Shown here piece by piece: positions 45,579-51,627 of a stretch of DNA of 64,000 nucleotides (its first letter is position 1; each line of letters begins with the position of its first letter). This DNA is from Skermanella mucosa (GTDB taxonomy: Bacteria > Pseudomonadota > Alphaproteobacteria > Azospirillales > Azospirillaceae). A program made the position numbers and the translations under genes. The notes beneath the pieces are model-generated. The model saw only the letters and a program-made list of their open reading frames with translations, was not told the origin of the DNA and did not search any database. The DNA lies in the NCBI RefSeq assembly GCF_016765655.2, contig NZ_CP086106.1, forward strand, positions 4,515,001-4,579,000, in the 5' to 3' direction.

Positions 45579-46763
45579 ATGGCTACCCTTCGATACGGGA
45601 TCGTTACCTACAAGGGCACCCCCGCCGGAACCCTGACCGAGGAACCGGCGGGCGGAACGCGTTTCCAGTACGCCGACGGGTTCGGCGAAACCATCGGCTG
45701 CGCCCTTCCGGTTGCCCGGCGGAGCCACGATGATCCCCATGGCCTGATCCCGTTCTTCGCCCACCTGGGTCCGGAAGGATGGTTGAGGCAGCGCCAGAGC
45801 GCCTATGCGGAAATCGACAGTGCGGACGATTTCGGACTCCTCCTGGCCTACGGCCGCGACTGCGTCGGCGCGGTCGGCATGGAAGACCCCGCCGGACATC
45901 CAGCGAGCCACGCTCCCAGGATGGCGGCCTCCTCCCTGGACCGTGCCGCGACGGCGGTCGAGCGGACGATCAGCGGAGTCCAGGCCAAGATCCTCTGCAC
46001 CGACCGGAACGGCCTGATCTTTCCGGCCGGCGCGACCGGGCCGGCGCCCTTCATCGCCAAATATCCCGACCGCATGCTGCCCGGCATGATCCGCAACGAA
46101 GCGACCACCCTGGAGCTGTGCCGGATCCTGCTGGGAAGCGGCGAGGTCTGCGAGGCCCGCGTGGGAACCGTCGAGGGGGTGGACGGGGTCGGCCTGATCG
46201 TCCGGCGGTTCGACCGGCATGGAGAGGACAAGCTGCGCTGCGAGGATTTCATGCAGGTGCTGAACCGCCGGCCCGGCCGGGATCACCAGGGAAAGTACGA
46301 TGCGGCCTATGAGGACCTGGCCGCCGCCTTGCGCCACTCGGCGGCTCCGCTGCTCGACGCCCGGCGCGTGTTCCGCAGGCTGACGGCTTACGTGCTGCTC
46401 GGCAACGTCGATTGCCACATGAAGAACTGGAGCCTCCTGGAAACGCCTTCGGGAATGAGGCTCGCTCCGGTCTATGACGCGCTGAACGGATACATCTACG
46501 CGGCGCAAGGCTACACCACGCGCTTCGGCCTGGAGTTCGACGGCGAGCGCCGCCAGTGGGACGTCTACGACCGGGACTTGCTGTTGGAAATCGCCGCCAG
46601 GCTAGGGCTCGGGCGGCCCGCCGCCGAAACCGCGCTCGCCTCGCTGGCGCGCGGAGGCGACCGGCTGTTCAGCCGCCTGGACCAGCCGCTCGGCCTGCCG
46701 GAGGAGCAGTCCCTGGCATATCGCGGGGCGGTGCGCGAAGCCTGGAGGAGGCTTTATGGATAA
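45579..46763 (+). CDS. hipA: HipA-type serine/threonine kinase toxin
   Basis: A 394-residue HipA-like kinase. The N-terminal subdomain has GTLTEEPAGGTRFQYADG and PFFAHLGPEGWL; TISGVQAKIL matches the ejectable P-loop (SGxQxK) with its regulatory Ser; GNVDCHMKNWSL holds the catalytic D-x-H-x2-N; APVYDALN supplies the metal-binding Asp. E. coli HipA phosphorylates GltX and induces persistence; targets vary elsewhere. The gene overlaps the downstream XRE gene by eight bases. The order, kinase first and regulator second, is reversed compared with E. coli hipBA. No good ribosome-binding site precedes the ATG. Confidence 0.9.
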   Translation: MATLRYGIVTYKGTPAGTLTEEPAGGTRFQYADGFGETIGCALPVARRSHDDPHGLIPFFAHLGPEGWLRQRQSAYAEIDSADDFGLLLAYGRDCVGAVGMEDPAGHPASHAPRMAASSLDRAATAVERTISGVQAKILCTDRNGLIFPAGATGPAPFIAKYPDRMLPGMIRNEATTLELCRILLGSGEVCEARVGTVEGVDGVGLIVRRFDRHGEDKLRCEDFMQVLNRRPGRDHQGKYDAAYEDLAAALRHSAAPLLDARRVFRRLTAYVLLGNVDCHMKNWSLLETPSGMRLAPVYDALNGYIYAAQGYTTRFGLEFDGERRQWDVYDRDLLLEIAARLGLGRPAAETALASLARGGDRLFSRLDQPLGLPEEQSLAYRGAVREAWRRLYG

Positions 46764-46990: not shown

Positions 46991-47653
46991 CTATTCGGCG
47001 ACCGCCGCCATGCGGCTTCCCAACGCGTTGTCGAGATAGTCGTCGACATGCTTGTCCAGCGCTTCCACGTGGGTCGAGAACAGGTGGGTGGCACCATCGA
47101 CGACCTTGTACTCGATCCGGATGTCGCGCTGGTGCGACAGCTTGTTGACCAGCTTGTGGACCGAGTTCTCCGGCACCAGCTCGTCCTTGGTGCCGTGGAC
47201 GATCAGGCCCGACGACGGGCACGGCGCCAGGAAGCTGAAGTCGAACGAGTTGGCCGGCGGGGCGACCGAGATGAACCCGTCGATCTCCGGCCGGCGCATC
47301 AGGAGCTGCATGCCGATCCAGGCGCCGAACGAGTGCCCGGCGATCCAGCAGGCCGACGCGTTGGGGTTGAAGGTCTGGAGCCAGTCCAGCGCCGAGGCCG
47401 CGTCGCTCAGTTCTCCCTCGCCCCGGTCGTAGCTGCCCTGGCTGCGCCCGACGCCCCGGAAATTGAACCGCAGCGTCGAGAAGCCGCGCCGGCCGAACGC
47501 ATGAAACAGGGTGTAGACCACCTTGTTGTTCATGGTTCCGCCATGATGGGGATGGGGATGCAGGAACAGCGCGACGGGAGCGTTGGGCTGCTTGCCGTGA
47601 ACATACCGGCCTTCGATCCGTCCGGCCGGTCCATTGATCATTACTTCGGGCAT
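46991..47653 (-). CDS. alpha/beta hydrolase, dienelactone-hydrolase-like
   Basis: A 220-residue serine hydrolase with FLHPHPHHGGTMNNKVV (oxyanion region), NFRGVGRSQGSYDRGEGELSDA, nucleophile elbow GHSFGAW, the acid VHGTKDELVP and catalytic His in GATHLF. It belongs to the small COG2945-type hydrolases common in proteobacteria, whose substrate is unknown. It converges on the XRE gene with seven bases between and is divergent from iscR. Confidence 0.9.
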   Translation of the reverse strand: MPEVMINGPAGRIEGRYVHGKQPNAPVALFLHPHPHHGGTMNNKVVYTLFHAFGRRGFSTLRFNFRGVGRSQGSYDRGEGELSDAASALDWLQTFNPNASACWIAGHSFGAWIGMQLLMRRPEIDGFISVAPPANSFDFSFLAPCPSSGLIVHGTKDELVPENSVHKLVNKLSHQRDIRIEYKVVDGATHLFSTHVEALDKHVDDYLDNALGSRMAAVAE

Positions 47654-48020
47654 TGCGGTGTGGGTCCCGGCGAAAACAGGTTGGCCCATACCTGACGGCA
47701 TGGGCGGCGGGGCTCGGGAGAAATCCCGACCAGGGAAAAACCGAGGCGGAAGGTAGGACATTCACCAAAGCATGAGAAGATCCCGCCGTTGCAATACTTG
47801 ACCACTGCACTAGGTCATCATATATCGGATGCCACCTCCAACGTCATCAGGCGGGAACCGCCCCGACGTTGGTCATACCAGTCCGACAAGACCGCCGACT
47901 ATATCACAGCGAGCAACCGAGTGATCAAGCATCTTCGCAAGCAAATCCATGGCGAGATCACCGGAAAATCGCGAGGGTAGTGCCGATGCACCGCCCGGGA
48001 ACAGGAACAGGGAGGCCGAC
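47654..48020. other. intergenic region between the hydrolase and iscR
   Basis: This 367-base gap contains the candidate iscR promoter and IscR-like site at 47794-47826 and then a leader of roughly 190 bases. A short open frame through the leader lacks similarity to any protein. The leader could hold RNA structure, but no known riboswitch pattern is seen. Confidence 0.5.
47794..47826 (+). promoter_or_regulatory. candidate iscR promoter with overlapping IscR-type site
   Basis: TTGACC at 47798-47803 and TATATC at 47821-47826 are separated by 17 bases, a good sigma-70 promoter. Over it lies ATACTTGACC-N9-GGTCA (47794-47817), an inverted repeat similar to the type 1 IscR site that represses the E. 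coli isc promoter. Confidence 0.6.
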
Positions 48021-48497
48021 GTGAGACTGAGCACCAAGGGGCGGTACGCCGTGATGGCGATGGTCGATCTCGCAAGCAGCAGCCGAGGCGGCCCGATAGC
48101 GCTCGCGGACATCGCCGAGCGCCAGGAAATCTCGCTCTCATACCTGGAGCAGCTGTTCGCAAAGCTGCGCAAAGGCGGCCTGGTCAAGAGCGTGCGCGGT
48201 CCCGGCGGCGGCTACCTCCTGGCCCACCCGGCCGACGCCATGCGGATCTCCGACATCATCCTGGCGGTGGACGAGCCGATCCGCGCCACTCGCTGCGCCG
48301 CCGGGTCGCCGGCCGGCTGCAGGACCAACCGCAGCCGATGCCTGACCCACGACCTGTGGGAGGAGCTGGGCAACCAGATCCACCTCTATCTCAGCAGCGT
48401 CACCGTCGCCGACGTGTGCGAGCGCCGCATCCTCGGATCGTCCCACGTCATGCTGCCGGAAGCGGTCAGCGAGCCCCGGGCTGCGGCGGCCGAGTAG
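48021..48497 (+). CDS. iscR: Rrf2-family Fe-S cluster regulator IscR
   Basis: A 158-residue winged-helix regulator. It starts RLSTKGRYAVMAMVDLA with a GTG codon preceded by GGGAGG. The three cluster-binding cysteines and the ligand His lie in RCAAGSPAGCRTNRSRCLTHDLW, the same arrangement as E. coli IscR, so it should bind a 2Fe-2S cluster and repress its own promoter when the cluster is loaded. It is followed by a cysteine desulfurase gene after about 30 bases. Confidence 0.93.
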   Translation: MRLSTKGRYAVMAMVDLASSSRGGPIALADIAERQEISLSYLEQLFAKLRKGGLVKSVRGPGGGYLLAHPADAMRISDIILAVDEPIRATRCAAGSPAGCRTNRSRCLTHDLWEELGNQIHLYLSSVTVADVCERRILGSSHVMLPEAVSEPRAAAAE

Positions 48498-48526
48498 GAA
48501 CCCGCTACGCGAAGAACCCGATCCCG

Positions 48527-49669
48527 ATGTCCGGCACCGCCTATCTCGACTACAACGCGACCGCCCCGACCCTGCCCGCCGTGCGCGACGCGGTGATGGC
48601 GGCGCTGGAGGTCGCCGGCAACCCCTCCTCCGTCCACGGCTTCGGCCGGCGCGCGCGCCGGCTGGTCGAGGATGCCCGGGCCGAGGTGGCGGCGCTGGCC
48701 GGGGTCGTGCCGGCCCGGATCGTGTTCACGTCCGGCGGGACCGAGGCGAACGCGTCAGCGTTGGCCACGGGAGCCTCCGGGAGGACCGGCCGCCGCATCC
48801 TGGTGTCGGCGATCGAGCATGACTCGGTGCTGGAGACCGTTCCCGACGCGGAGCGGATCCCGGTCATGCCGGACGGCACGGTGGACCTCGCGGCGCTCGA
48901 CCGGATGCTGGCGCGGGGAGACGGGCCGGCCCTGGTCTCGGTCATGCTGGTCAACAACGAGACCGGGGTGATCCAGCCGGTCGCCGAGGCGTCGCGCCTC
49001 GCCCATGCCCATGGCGCGCTGTTCCATTGCGACGCCGTCCAGGGAGCCGGCCGCGTCGCGATGGACGCCGATTCCCTGGGCATCGACCTGATGACCCTGT
49101 CGGCCCACAAGCTGGGCGGGCCCCACGGCGTGGGCGCCCTGGTGGTGCGGGAAGGCATCCCGATAGCACCCGTGCTGCGCGGCGGCGGACAGGAACAGCG
49201 CCGCCGGGCCGGAACGGAGAACGTCGCCGGGATCGCCGGGTTCGGCGCCGCCGCCAGGCTCGCCCGGAGCGCCGCGGACGAGGCCGTCCGGATCGGCCGG
49301 CTGCGCGACGGGCTGGAACGGCGCATCGCCGAAGCGGCCGAAGCCGCCGGCGTCGCCGTCACGATCCACGGCAGGGCCGCGCGCCGGGTGGCCAACACCA
49401 CCTGCGTATCGATGCCCGGGGTTTCCAGCGAAACGCAGATCATGGCCCTGGACTTGGCCGGCGTGGCGGTCAGCGCCGGTTCGGCCTGCTCCAGCGGCAA
49501 GGTGAAGCCGTCCCACGTGCTGACGGCCATGGGAGTCGACGCAGGCGAGGCTTCCTCCGCCATCCGGGTCAGCCTGGGCTGGGCGACGGGGCCGGAGGAC
49601 GTCGACCGCTTCGTGGACGCCTGGAGCACGCTGTGCCGCCGCCGGGCGCGGGCGACGGCCGGCCCCTGA
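48527..49669 (+). CDS. cysteine desulfurase (NifS/IscS-like)
   Basis: A 380-residue PLP enzyme that takes sulfur from cysteine to form a persulfide. The PLP Lys is in LSAHKLGGPHG, the active Cys in SAGSACSSGKVKPSHVL, and YLDYNATAP starts the protein. The loop containing the Cys fits group I desulfurases. In related genomes this gene is normally followed by a second desulfurase, iscU and iscA; here the hscB relative follows after about 130 bases. Confidence 0.94.
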   Translation: MSGTAYLDYNATAPTLPAVRDAVMAALEVAGNPSSVHGFGRRARRLVEDARAEVAALAGVVPARIVFTSGGTEANASALATGASGRTGRRILVSAIEHDSVLETVPDAERIPVMPDGTVDLAALDRMLARGDGPALVSVMLVNNETGVIQPVAEASRLAHAHGALFHCDAVQGAGRVAMDADSLGIDLMTLSAHKLGGPHGVGALVVREGIPIAPVLRGGGQEQRRRAGTENVAGIAGFGAAARLARSAADEAVRIGRLRDGLERRIAEAAEAAGVAVTIHGRAARRVANTTCVSMPGVSSETQIMALDLAGVAVSAGSACSSGKVKPSHVLTAMGVDAGEASSAIRVSLGWATGPEDVDRFVDAWSTLCRRRARATAGP

Positions 49670-49799: not shown

Positions 49800-50468
49800 A
49801 TGAGTGAACGCAAAGGCGGCGGGCCGCGGGGCGGCTCGGGAAAAGGCGGGATCGGCGGCGGGCCGGGAACGGTGGCGGGAGACCTGGTCCCTTGCTGGCT
49901 GTGCTCCCATTCTGTCTCGCCGCGCGCCCTGTTCTGCCACAACTGCGGCACGGTGCAGCCGCCGCGCTCGATCGATCCCTTCACGCGGCTGGGGCTGCCG
50001 ATCCGTTTCGACCTGGACCCCGCCGGACTGGAGCGCCAGTTCGCCGGCTTCCGCCGGACGCTCGCCCCGGAACGGTTCGAAAGCAAGGGCCCGCGGGAGA
50101 AATCCAACGCGCGGGCGCAGCTCGACACCTTCAAGCATGCCTATGACACGCTGCGCGACCCGATCCGCCGCGCCCGCCTCCTGCTCGACGCCGCCCACGG
50201 CGCCGGCGCCCGGCAACCGCTCCCCGCCGACCCGGAGCTTGACGCCCTGGAGGGGGCCCTGGCGGATGCCGGCGACACGGCGGAACTGGACCGGGTGGCC
50301 AACCAGGCGGTGCGCGGCACGGAACAGTGCATCCACGACCTGGCGTCCGCGTTCCGCGCCGGGGATCTGGACGCCGCGGCGCGCATCGTCGATCGGCTGG
50401 AGCGGCTGGAAGCGCTCGCCGGCGCGGCGCGGCAGCGGCGTCCCGGCCTGCGCGGCGACGCTCCCTGA
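49800..50468 (+). CDS. HscB-like co-chaperone with zinc ribbon and lost HPD motif
   Basis: A 222-residue HscB homologue. The first about 35 residues are Gly/Arg-rich; then a zinc ribbon C-x2-C...C-x2-C (PCWLCSHS, LFCHNCGTVQPP), as in many HscB proteins; then a J-like domain (about 60-125), DPFTRLGLPIRFDLD to FKHAYDTLRDPIRRARLLL, and the C-terminal three-helix HscB domain. The J-domain loop that should read HPD reads LAPERF: both His and Asp are replaced in an otherwise intact frame. HPD is needed to stimulate HscA ATPase, and no hscA is present here. It may keep an IscU- or desulfurase-binding role. Confidence 0.85.
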   Translation: MSERKGGGPRGGSGKGGIGGGPGTVAGDLVPCWLCSHSVSPRALFCHNCGTVQPPRSIDPFTRLGLPIRFDLDPAGLERQFAGFRRTLAPERFESKGPREKSNARAQLDTFKHAYDTLRDPIRRARLLLDAAHGAGARQPLPADPELDALEGALADAGDTAELDRVANQAVRGTEQCIHDLASAFRAGDLDAAARIVDRLERLEALAGAARQRRPGLRGDAP

Positions 50469-50619: not shown

Positions 50620-50949
50620 ATGCCGAAGATCACATTCATCGACACCGAGGGCAACAAGCGCGACGTGGATGCGCCCTTGGGCCTGTCGGTGCTGGAAATC
50701 GCCCATCGCAACGACATCGACCTGGAAGGGGCGTGCGAGGGCTCGCTGGCCTGCTCGACCTGCCACGTGATCGTCGAACCCGAATGGTACGACCTGCTGA
50801 CCGACGCGTCCGAGGACGAGGAGGACATGCTGGACCTCGCGTTCGGCCTGACCAAGACCTCCCGCCTGGGCTGCCAGATCATCATGTCCGAGGAGCTTGA
50901 CGGCCTGACCGTCCGGCTGCCGTCCGGCACGCGCAACATGATGGGCTGA
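50620..50949 (+). CDS. fdx: ISC-type 2Fe-2S ferredoxin
   Basis: A 109-residue adrenodoxin-type ferredoxin. Cluster ligands follow the pattern C-x5-C-x2-C in [15 protein letters not shown] and a fourth Cys in RLGCQI. The acidic stretch [13 protein letters not shown] is the usual partner-binding helix. In ISC systems it supplies electrons for cluster assembly. hscA, which usually stands before it, is missing; about 150 bases separate it from the HscB relative. tenA follows after six bases. Confidence 0.96.
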
Positions 50950-50955
50950 CGCCCG

Positions 50956-51627
50956 ATGGCCGCACGCCTGTTCGACCGCCTGAAGGAGGCGGCGGGACCG
51001 GAATGGACGGGCTATACCCGCCACGAGTTCGTCCGCCGGCTGGGCGACGGCAGCCTGCCCGAAGCCTCGTTCCGCCATTACCTGATCCAGGATTACCTGT
51101 TCCTGATCCATTTCGCCCGCGCCTACGCGCTGGCGGTCTACAAGAGCGACACCCTGGCCGACATGCGGCAGGCGGGAGCCTCGCTCTCGGCGATCCTGGA
51201 CCTGGAAATGGGGCTTCACGTCGGGTTCTGCGCCGGCTGGGGCCTGGACGAGGCGGCCATGGCGGCCTCCCCCGAGGCGGCGGGCACCCTGGCCTACACC
51301 CGCTACGTGCTGGAGCGCGGGACGGCCGGCGACCTGCTCGACCTGCATGTGGCTCTGGCGCCCTGCATCGTCGGCTATGCGGAGATCGCGGCGGAACTGA
51401 CGGCCGACCCGGCGACGCGGCTGGAGGGAAATCCCTACCGGGCCTGGATCGAGATGTATGCCGGCGAGGAGTACCGGGCGGTCGCGGCGGCCGAGGTGGC
51501 CCAGCTCGACAGCCTGTACGGCCGGCGCGGCGGGGAGGCGCGGTTCCCCGACCTTGCCCGCACCTTCACGACCGCGAGCCGGCTGGAAGCCGGGTTCTGG
51601 GAGATGGGCCTGAAGCTGCTTCCCTGA
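50956..51627 (+). CDS. tenA: TenA-family thiaminase II / aminopyrimidine aminohydrolase
   Basis: A 223-residue all-helical TenA protein. TRHEFVRRLGDGSLPEASFRHYL-like start, YLFLIHFARAYALAVYK and LAPCIVGYAEI, whose Cys (near 137) is the catalytic nucleophile, match the family. It hydrolyses the amino group of aminomethyl-pyrimidine salvaged from degraded thiamin. Only six bases separate it from fdx, so it is probably co-transcribed with the Fe-S genes. Confidence 0.92.
   Translation: MAARLFDRLKEAAGPEWTGYTRHEFVRRLGDGSLPEASFRHYLIQDYLFLIHFARAYALAVYKSDTLADMRQAGASLSAILDLEMGLHVGFCAGWGLDEAAMAASPEAAGTLAYTRYVLERGTAGDLLDLHVALAPCIVGYAEIAAELTADPATRLEGNPYRAWIEMYAGEEYRAVAAAEVAQLDSLYGRRGGEARFPDLARTFTTASRLEAGFWEMGLKLLP

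Follow-up and report, generated by a model that had tools for sequence, protein, structure and literature searches.

The hscB homologue encoded in a 64,000-nucleotide stretch of Skermanella mucosa DNA (hereafter the window) carries APE in place of the HPD motif, and comparison with its relatives points firmly to an old, clade-wide conversion of HscB into an HPD-less protein (hscB'), for which a single event is the best reading. HPD loss accompanies collapse of the ISC operon, and hscB' is under purifying selection. Our best guess, which we put at a probability of roughly 40%, is that hscB' may now serve as an adaptor of the NifS-like cysteine desulfurase encoded directly upstream. The features on which the argument draws are as follows, in window coordinates.

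47949-48497, plus strand: iscR, Rrf2 family regulator (open reading frame and start as listed)
48527-49669, plus strand: NifS-like cysteine desulfurase with SAHK and SACSSG motifs (HMM matches, motifs)
49800-50468, plus strand: hscB', HPD-less HscB homologue of 222 aa (open reading frame listing, HMM matches, predicted fold)
49893-49946, plus strand: Zn ribbon, C32-x2-C35...C46-x2-C49, all four Cys invariant in 56 aligned rows
50064-50072, plus strand: APE codons gcc-ccg-gaa at the HPD site, residues 89-91 (sequence, alignment)
50241-50255, plus strand: residues 148-152, at the site where the IscU-binding helix once lay (E. coli L92-E100); HPD-containing relatives have four more residues here
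50403-50405, plus strand: R202, aligned with E. coli F153, an IscU hot spot (alignment)
50620-50949, plus strand: fdx, ISC-type [2Fe-2S] ferredoxin (HMM matches, searches)
50956-51627, plus strand: tenA, TENA/THI-4 (HMM matches)

These genes lie on the plus strand in the order iscR, NifS-like desulfurase, hscB', fdx, tenA, and a last gene that we take from its sequence to be murI; in Azospirillum (genus g3) mnmA follows fdx. The SAHK and SACSSG motifs of the desulfurase presumably supply the PLP lysine and the catalytic cysteine, respectively, and the desulfurase query used in our searches (48521-49666) begins two codons 5' of the ATG at 48527. Divergent to iscR-nifS-hscB' is an alpha/beta-hydrolase-like gene (46991-47761, minus strand), which stands beside the operon in several HPD-less loci and is kept next to hscB' even where nifS has been lost (L181, L226); its relative in L178 has a weak match to NCBIfam SglT (81 bits against a cut-off of 300). 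Farther upstream, a plus-strand frame of 394 aa (45579-46763) presumably resembles a HipA-type kinase.

The hscB' frame is open and in frame throughout, and the earlier note, which had called it intact with its zinc ribbon kept and both His and Asp of the HPD motif replaced, was right on each count; it had placed the motif codons near 50071-50079, and their actual site is 50064-50072. Three parts make up the protein, the Zn ribbon, a J-like domain, and a helical bundle at the C terminus. Its resemblance to HscB models and structures is weak but clear: it scores under the curated cut-off of the NCBIfam HscB model TIGR00714 (38.6 bits; cut-off 46.75) and of Pfam HSCB_C (19.8 against 22.1), and sequence searches of the PDB matched 4it5 (2e-9), 1fpo (8.5e-9), and human 3bvo (6.7e-8), the last match taking in the Zn ribbon. 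An AlphaFold2 model built from 56 sequences reached a pLDDT of 89.8, with folded parts mostly at 94-98, and its top Foldseek matches in the PDB were 3bvo, 1fpo, 4it5, and 3uo3, the nearest folds being human HscB, E. coli HscB, V. cholerae HscB, and yeast Jac1. The predicted model thus has the HscB fold, a J domain joined to a C-terminal helical bundle, and the claim that the C-terminal HscB domain is kept stands as far as the predicted fold is concerned; the IscU-binding residues within it are gone, as described below.

Scanning of 82 Azospirillaceae genomes identified one hscB homologue each in 77, with no match in the other five (G001, G050, G056, G057, and G073). HPD was absent from all 77, the site reading mostly DPE, DPA, DPD, APE, or APA, and the Pro of the motif and the Arg that follows it were nearly always retained. 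The HPD-less genera of the family, as judged from named records, include Skermanella, in which all five genus genomes read APE or SPE, Azospirillum, Nitrospirillum, Niveispirillum, Oleisolibacter, and Aerophototrophica. DPE was the commonest replacement (63 of 131 HPD-less rows, some species being counted twice), and the His of HPD occurred in none of 89 HPD-less clade rows. Sequencing error as the cause of APE, the obvious concern at a single locus, is ruled out by the loss of HPD in 5/5 genus and 77/77 family homologues. A second, normal HscB in the same genomes was also rejected, with no more than one match in any of the 82 scanned; the second row for G049 is a second piece of the one reading frame.

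In a wider alphaproteobacterial sample, matches were found in 100 of 385 genomes, and the 90 loci read comprised 81 with HPD intact, four from Azospirillaceae, and five others without HPD; ten of the weaker matches were not read (G293, G395, G439, G313, G351, G256, G212, G322, G152, and G135), and the search profile (A1) was made from HPD-less proteins, so that distant HscBs were possibly missed. The five HPD-less genomes represent four other alphaproteobacterial families (G195, DPQ; G298, NPE; G461, DPQ; G386, NAE; G181, LAE), and DPQ, DPE, DPA, DPT, or NPQ stands at the site in ten more MAG loci that do not belong to genera of the family. A further scan of named genomes used a single peptide pattern in the Zn ribbon and kept 80 of 106 relatives; the family and named sets share species, and their counts are not additive.

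In a tree of 109 HscBs computed without five motif columns, the 28 HPD-less rows form one side of one branch with an SH-aLRT of 100, and in the midpoint-rooted drawing they fall within the HPD-containing HscBs; this is a gene tree only, made by a quick method, with some long branches. Several independent losses of HPD are not supported by the single clade that this tree recovers. As a separate observation, one genome (G279) has two HPD-containing hscB-hscA loci (L091 and L112) on different branches, either paralogues or a mixed assembly.

The loss of HPD accompanies a collapse of the operon around the gene. HPD-containing relatives (Magnetospirillum, Telmatospirillum) carry iscR-nifS-iscS-iscU-iscA-hscB-hscA-fdx, often with mnmA next, and the HPD-less lineage carries iscR-nifS-hscB'-fdx, followed by mnmA or tenA; the two operons are homologous because the NifS-like genes next to hscB' and those of full ISC operons form one lineage in a tree, distinct from IscS. 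Neither HscA nor IscU was found at any HPD-less locus (0/77 family, 0/5 class, 0/49 named), and at HPD-containing loci HscA was present in 75/81 class and 31/31 named cases and IscU in 79/81 and 30/31. Six HPD-containing loci had no HscA in the piece read: three of the genomes (G382, G402, G186) have an over-cut-off HscA elsewhere, two (G100, G087) have a weaker match elsewhere, and the G231 piece stops at a contig edge. Genome-wide, neither HscA (with a positive control in E. coli) nor IscU exceeded its cut-off in any of the 82 family genomes, and IscU did so in all 14 HPD-containing genomes tested. The best match to the HscA model in the window's genome scored 634 bits, under the cut-off of 708.55, and is read as DnaK. 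The earlier report of a missing hscA next door therefore extends to the whole of the window's genome, and its suggestion that HPD loss goes with hscA absence holds across the family, class, and named loci compared. Along with hscA, iscS, iscU, and iscA left the operon, and the change first read at one locus is real but old and clade-wide. The trio of IscS, IscU, and HscA that marks an ISC system was not found, with IscU and HscA sought genome-wide and IscS and iscA examined at the loci.

One family member without hscB' (G001, L191) has iscR-nifS-iscS-fdx-tenA-mnmA, keeping an IscS-clade gene in the operon, and is perhaps an intermediate of the collapse. A record labelled Stygiobacter (Ignavibacteriota; L255) contains a Magnetospirillum-like full ISC operon, either by contamination or by transfer. 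The SUF pathway of Fe-S assembly is represented in the window's genome by over-cut-off matches to sufB, sufC, sufD, sufS, and a SUF-associated gene; most alphaproteobacteria having SUF are reported to be without ISC (PMC10631705), and the portion of that source available to us makes no mention of a retained HPD-less hscB. Matches of NifU size, read as NifU from frame length and score, occur in 50 of the 82 family genomes and not in the window's own, and NifU was rejected on that distribution as a replacement scaffold.

The residues through which HscB meets its client scaffold have gone as well. Binding of E. coli HscB to IscU is chiefly via L92, L96, and F153 (PMC3040723). With E. coli K-12 HscB as reference, the residue type was kept at all three positions in 78 of 79 HPD-containing rows vs. 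0 of 89 HPD-less rows, and a deletion removes the L96 and E97 positions from 88 of the 89. This comparison covers 79 of 112 HPD-containing loci, 33 class loci from L139 up having been excluded as too diverged, and its 89 HPD-less rows exclude the three truncated forms and, among the 49 named rows, 39 that mostly repeat species present elsewhere in the set. On this alignment, the IscU-binding residues are firmly judged to be gone from the HPD-less clade. In their place the clade has fixed residues of its own, H47 (93%), G97 (91%), A104 (99%), D164 (84%), R165 (84%), and R186 (91%), while N112 of helix III, present in 100% of HPD-containing rows, is lost; the arginines R86 (helix II) and R92 (following the motif) are retained. 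Every one of the 12 columns that never vary across 56 aligned rows falls within the Zn ribbon or the J-like domain.

Selection nevertheless persists on hscB'. By the pairwise Nei-Gojobori method, five Skermanella pairs gave dN/dS values of 0.09-0.33, eight pairs from the Azospirillum group 0.12-0.31, and two Nitrospirillum pairs 0.04-0.05; these pairs share branches and are thus non-independent. For comparison, nifS gave 0.11-0.30 in the same 15 pairs, and HPD-containing hscB gave 0.05-0.20 in four pairs, overlapping the hscB' range. Values for hscB' were above those of fdx and mnmA in most pairs, and mostly above tenA. No internal stops were found in the five Skermanella genomes. In three genomes of the Azospirillum group (G012, G017, G043; L078, L079, L081) the C-terminal domain has been lost and the motif is AGD or TGD, and their remaining Zn ribbon and J-like part has a dN/dS of about 0.14; no comparable truncation was seen in the other 74 family homologues. 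Since hscB' is kept under selection without its chaperone and scaffold contacts, it probably has a new job. The proposal of an HscA-independent role is upheld to this extent, with dN/dS well below 1; a role in ISC-type Fe-S assembly is unlikely because the IscU interface is lost too.

How this might have come about can be outlined as follows. hscB' would descend from a normal HscB, and the ISC operon would have collapsed in an ancestor shared by the Azospirillaceae and a number of alphaproteobacterial lineages with small genomes, with iscS, iscU, iscA, and hscA leaving it and bulk Fe-S assembly presumably taken over by SUF, judging from the SUF genes of the window's genome. hscB' would have stayed, losing the Hsp70-driving HPD and the IscU-binding residues and fixing a new conserved set, all three of which are seen in the comparisons above. 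It may now act as a Zn-ribbon/J-like adaptor that neither stimulates Hsp70 nor engages IscU, and its likeliest partner in most of the clade would be the NifS-like desulfurase encoded upstream, contacted via a third interface known for HscB, the face of its C-terminal stem to which IscS binds in the E. coli protein. There it would steer or restrain sulfur delivery, perhaps to MnmA for tRNA thiolation, which is the weaker part of the proposal. The fuller version, in which a non-chaperone adaptor docks on the NifS-like desulfurase and passes sulfur to MnmA and tRNA thiolation or to other acceptors, a side function in E. coli having become the main one after loss of the ISC core, is correspondingly more tentative.

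Linkage and IscS-facing residues both bear on the desulfurase. A nifS-like gene stands at 74 of the 77 family hscB' loci, and also with hscB' in part of genus g12 (where the distances include oddities, one of -699 and two of 590) and at several MAG loci without a nearby iscR or fdx. In E. coli, the C-terminal stem of HscB makes direct contact with IscS, HscB having an effect on the reaction with or without HscA, and D110 and E115 are part of the IscS-facing side (PMC5037179). An acidic residue occurs at the D110 position in 80/89 HPD-less vs. 22/79 HPD-containing rows and at the E115 position in 83/89 vs. 24/79; E165/E166, the other pair whose mutation impairs the effect on IscS, align with R/P in hscB'. 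The nifS linkage, taken with HscB-IscS binding in E. coli, favours the desulfurase as partner. The fdx-mnmA link is less telling: mnmA lies 3' of fdx at 45/45 loci of the largest genus, g3 (once with tenA between), but the link does not single out hscB' because many HPD-containing full ISC operons have it too, and it is therefore older than the collapse.

Pairing with the desulfurase is not obligate. In G298 and MAG_CA70 hscB' is kept beside the same divergent hydrolase gene, nifS having been cut out from between the two, and neither G298 nor G195, whose hscB' lies at a contig end, has a NifS-like match at E <= 1e-40 anywhere in the genome. Conversely, nifS and fdx are present and hscB' is absent in G001, G056, and G057, which together with G298 contradict obligate pairing; the three truncated forms have lost the C-terminal domain expected to bind the desulfurase while nifS is kept. 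Obligate pairing with the ISC ferredoxin is likewise weakened, as only distant ferredoxins (40-48%) were found in G195, G298, and six of seven MAG genomes, MAG_CA70 among them. With nifS and the ISC ferredoxin missing, hscB' must, at least in G298, have a function needing neither.

The two main alternatives are a Pam16-like regulator and a SUF-linked adaptor. Pam16, in which HPD is replaced by DKE in yeast and DKS in human, is described as inhibiting its J partner (PMC13254874, PMC8605242), and hscB' might similarly stimulate no Hsp70 itself and pair or compete with a true J protein at DnaK. That DPE is the commonest hscB' motif, that all 12 invariant columns map to the Zn ribbon and J-like domain and exactly this part is retained under selection in the truncated forms, and that an Hsp70 match (E <= 1e-100), mostly readable as DnaK, was present in 45/45 genomes searched are consistent with such a regulator; the identified neighbours of hscB' are sulfur genes, however, with no J-protein gene noticed among them, and N112 of helix III is lost, and we regard the idea as rather unlikely. 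A dedicated second Hsp70 as a new partner was rejected, with one match at E <= 1e-100 in G000 and two in just 4 of 29 family genomes searched.

Doubtful, too, is the view that hscB' is a stand-alone adaptor for SUF or another Fe-S recipient, with the nifS link merely an inherited gene order. In G298, and probably in MAG_CA70, hscB' persists after loss of nifS and of the ISC-type fdx, and SufB, SufC, SufD, and SufS are encoded in the window's genome, the one in which SUF was checked, but there hscB' and suf lie ~1 Mb apart.

Slow decay of a relic without partners, drifting toward loss, would account for the five family genomes of 82 without a match, the three further forms without a C-terminal domain, and a dN/dS higher than in fdx and mnmA, and mostly than in tenA, when the same pairs are compared. 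We consider it improbable: the other 74 family homologues are untruncated and the gene recurs in five genomes of four other families, and a dN/dS of 0.04-0.33 (like that of its nifS neighbour, and about 0.14 even in the truncated forms), newly conserved residues, and a confident predicted fold argue against a dying gene. Least credible is that hscB' still works as a J protein for DnaK, for although R86 and R92 are retained and DjlB and DjlC tolerate HPE (PMC13254874), the His is lost in 89/89 rows, and ordinary J function is unlikely because replacement of H or D abolished Hsp70 stimulation in every system tested, according to the part of PMC8215388 available to us.

In fold, in descent, and in its operon place upstream of fdx, hscB' resembles HscB/Hsc20/Jac1, the ISC co-chaperone and class C J-domain protein, and it shares the Zn ribbon with human HSC20; it differs in lacking HPD and the IscU hot spots, in falling under the curated HscB cut-off, and in belonging to family genomes with neither HscA nor IscU over cut-off. 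Its predicted J-domain fold and non-conservative HPD replacement would place it among type IV J-like proteins such as Pam16/Magmas and DnaJB13, but unlike these it is a Zn-ribbon protein of HscB descent with no known J partner, encoded in a sulfur-gene operon and common to a whole bacterial clade. The operon itself shares with the alphaproteobacterial ISC operon of Magnetospirillum and Telmatospirillum the genes iscR, the NifS-like desulfurase, hscB, fdx, and in many cases mnmA, identically ordered, but lacks iscS, iscU, iscA, and hscA. Against this stand statements that HPD is invariant (in a review, PMC9596805) and that hscB accompanies hscA in 328/330 prokaryotic genomes (a 2026 review, PMC13254874); the available part of the latter leaves open whether an altered HPD in J proteins arose by accident or by selection. 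No earlier description of an HPD-less HscB was found in the open-access literature.

Taken together, these results describe a clade that as a whole has lost HPD, the Hsp70 partner, and the client scaffold and yet retains the protein under selection. The HPD-less clade is in this sense a natural experiment on the roles of HscB besides Hsp70 help, and in culturable Azospirillum the HscB-desulfurase contact would be open to a simple test.
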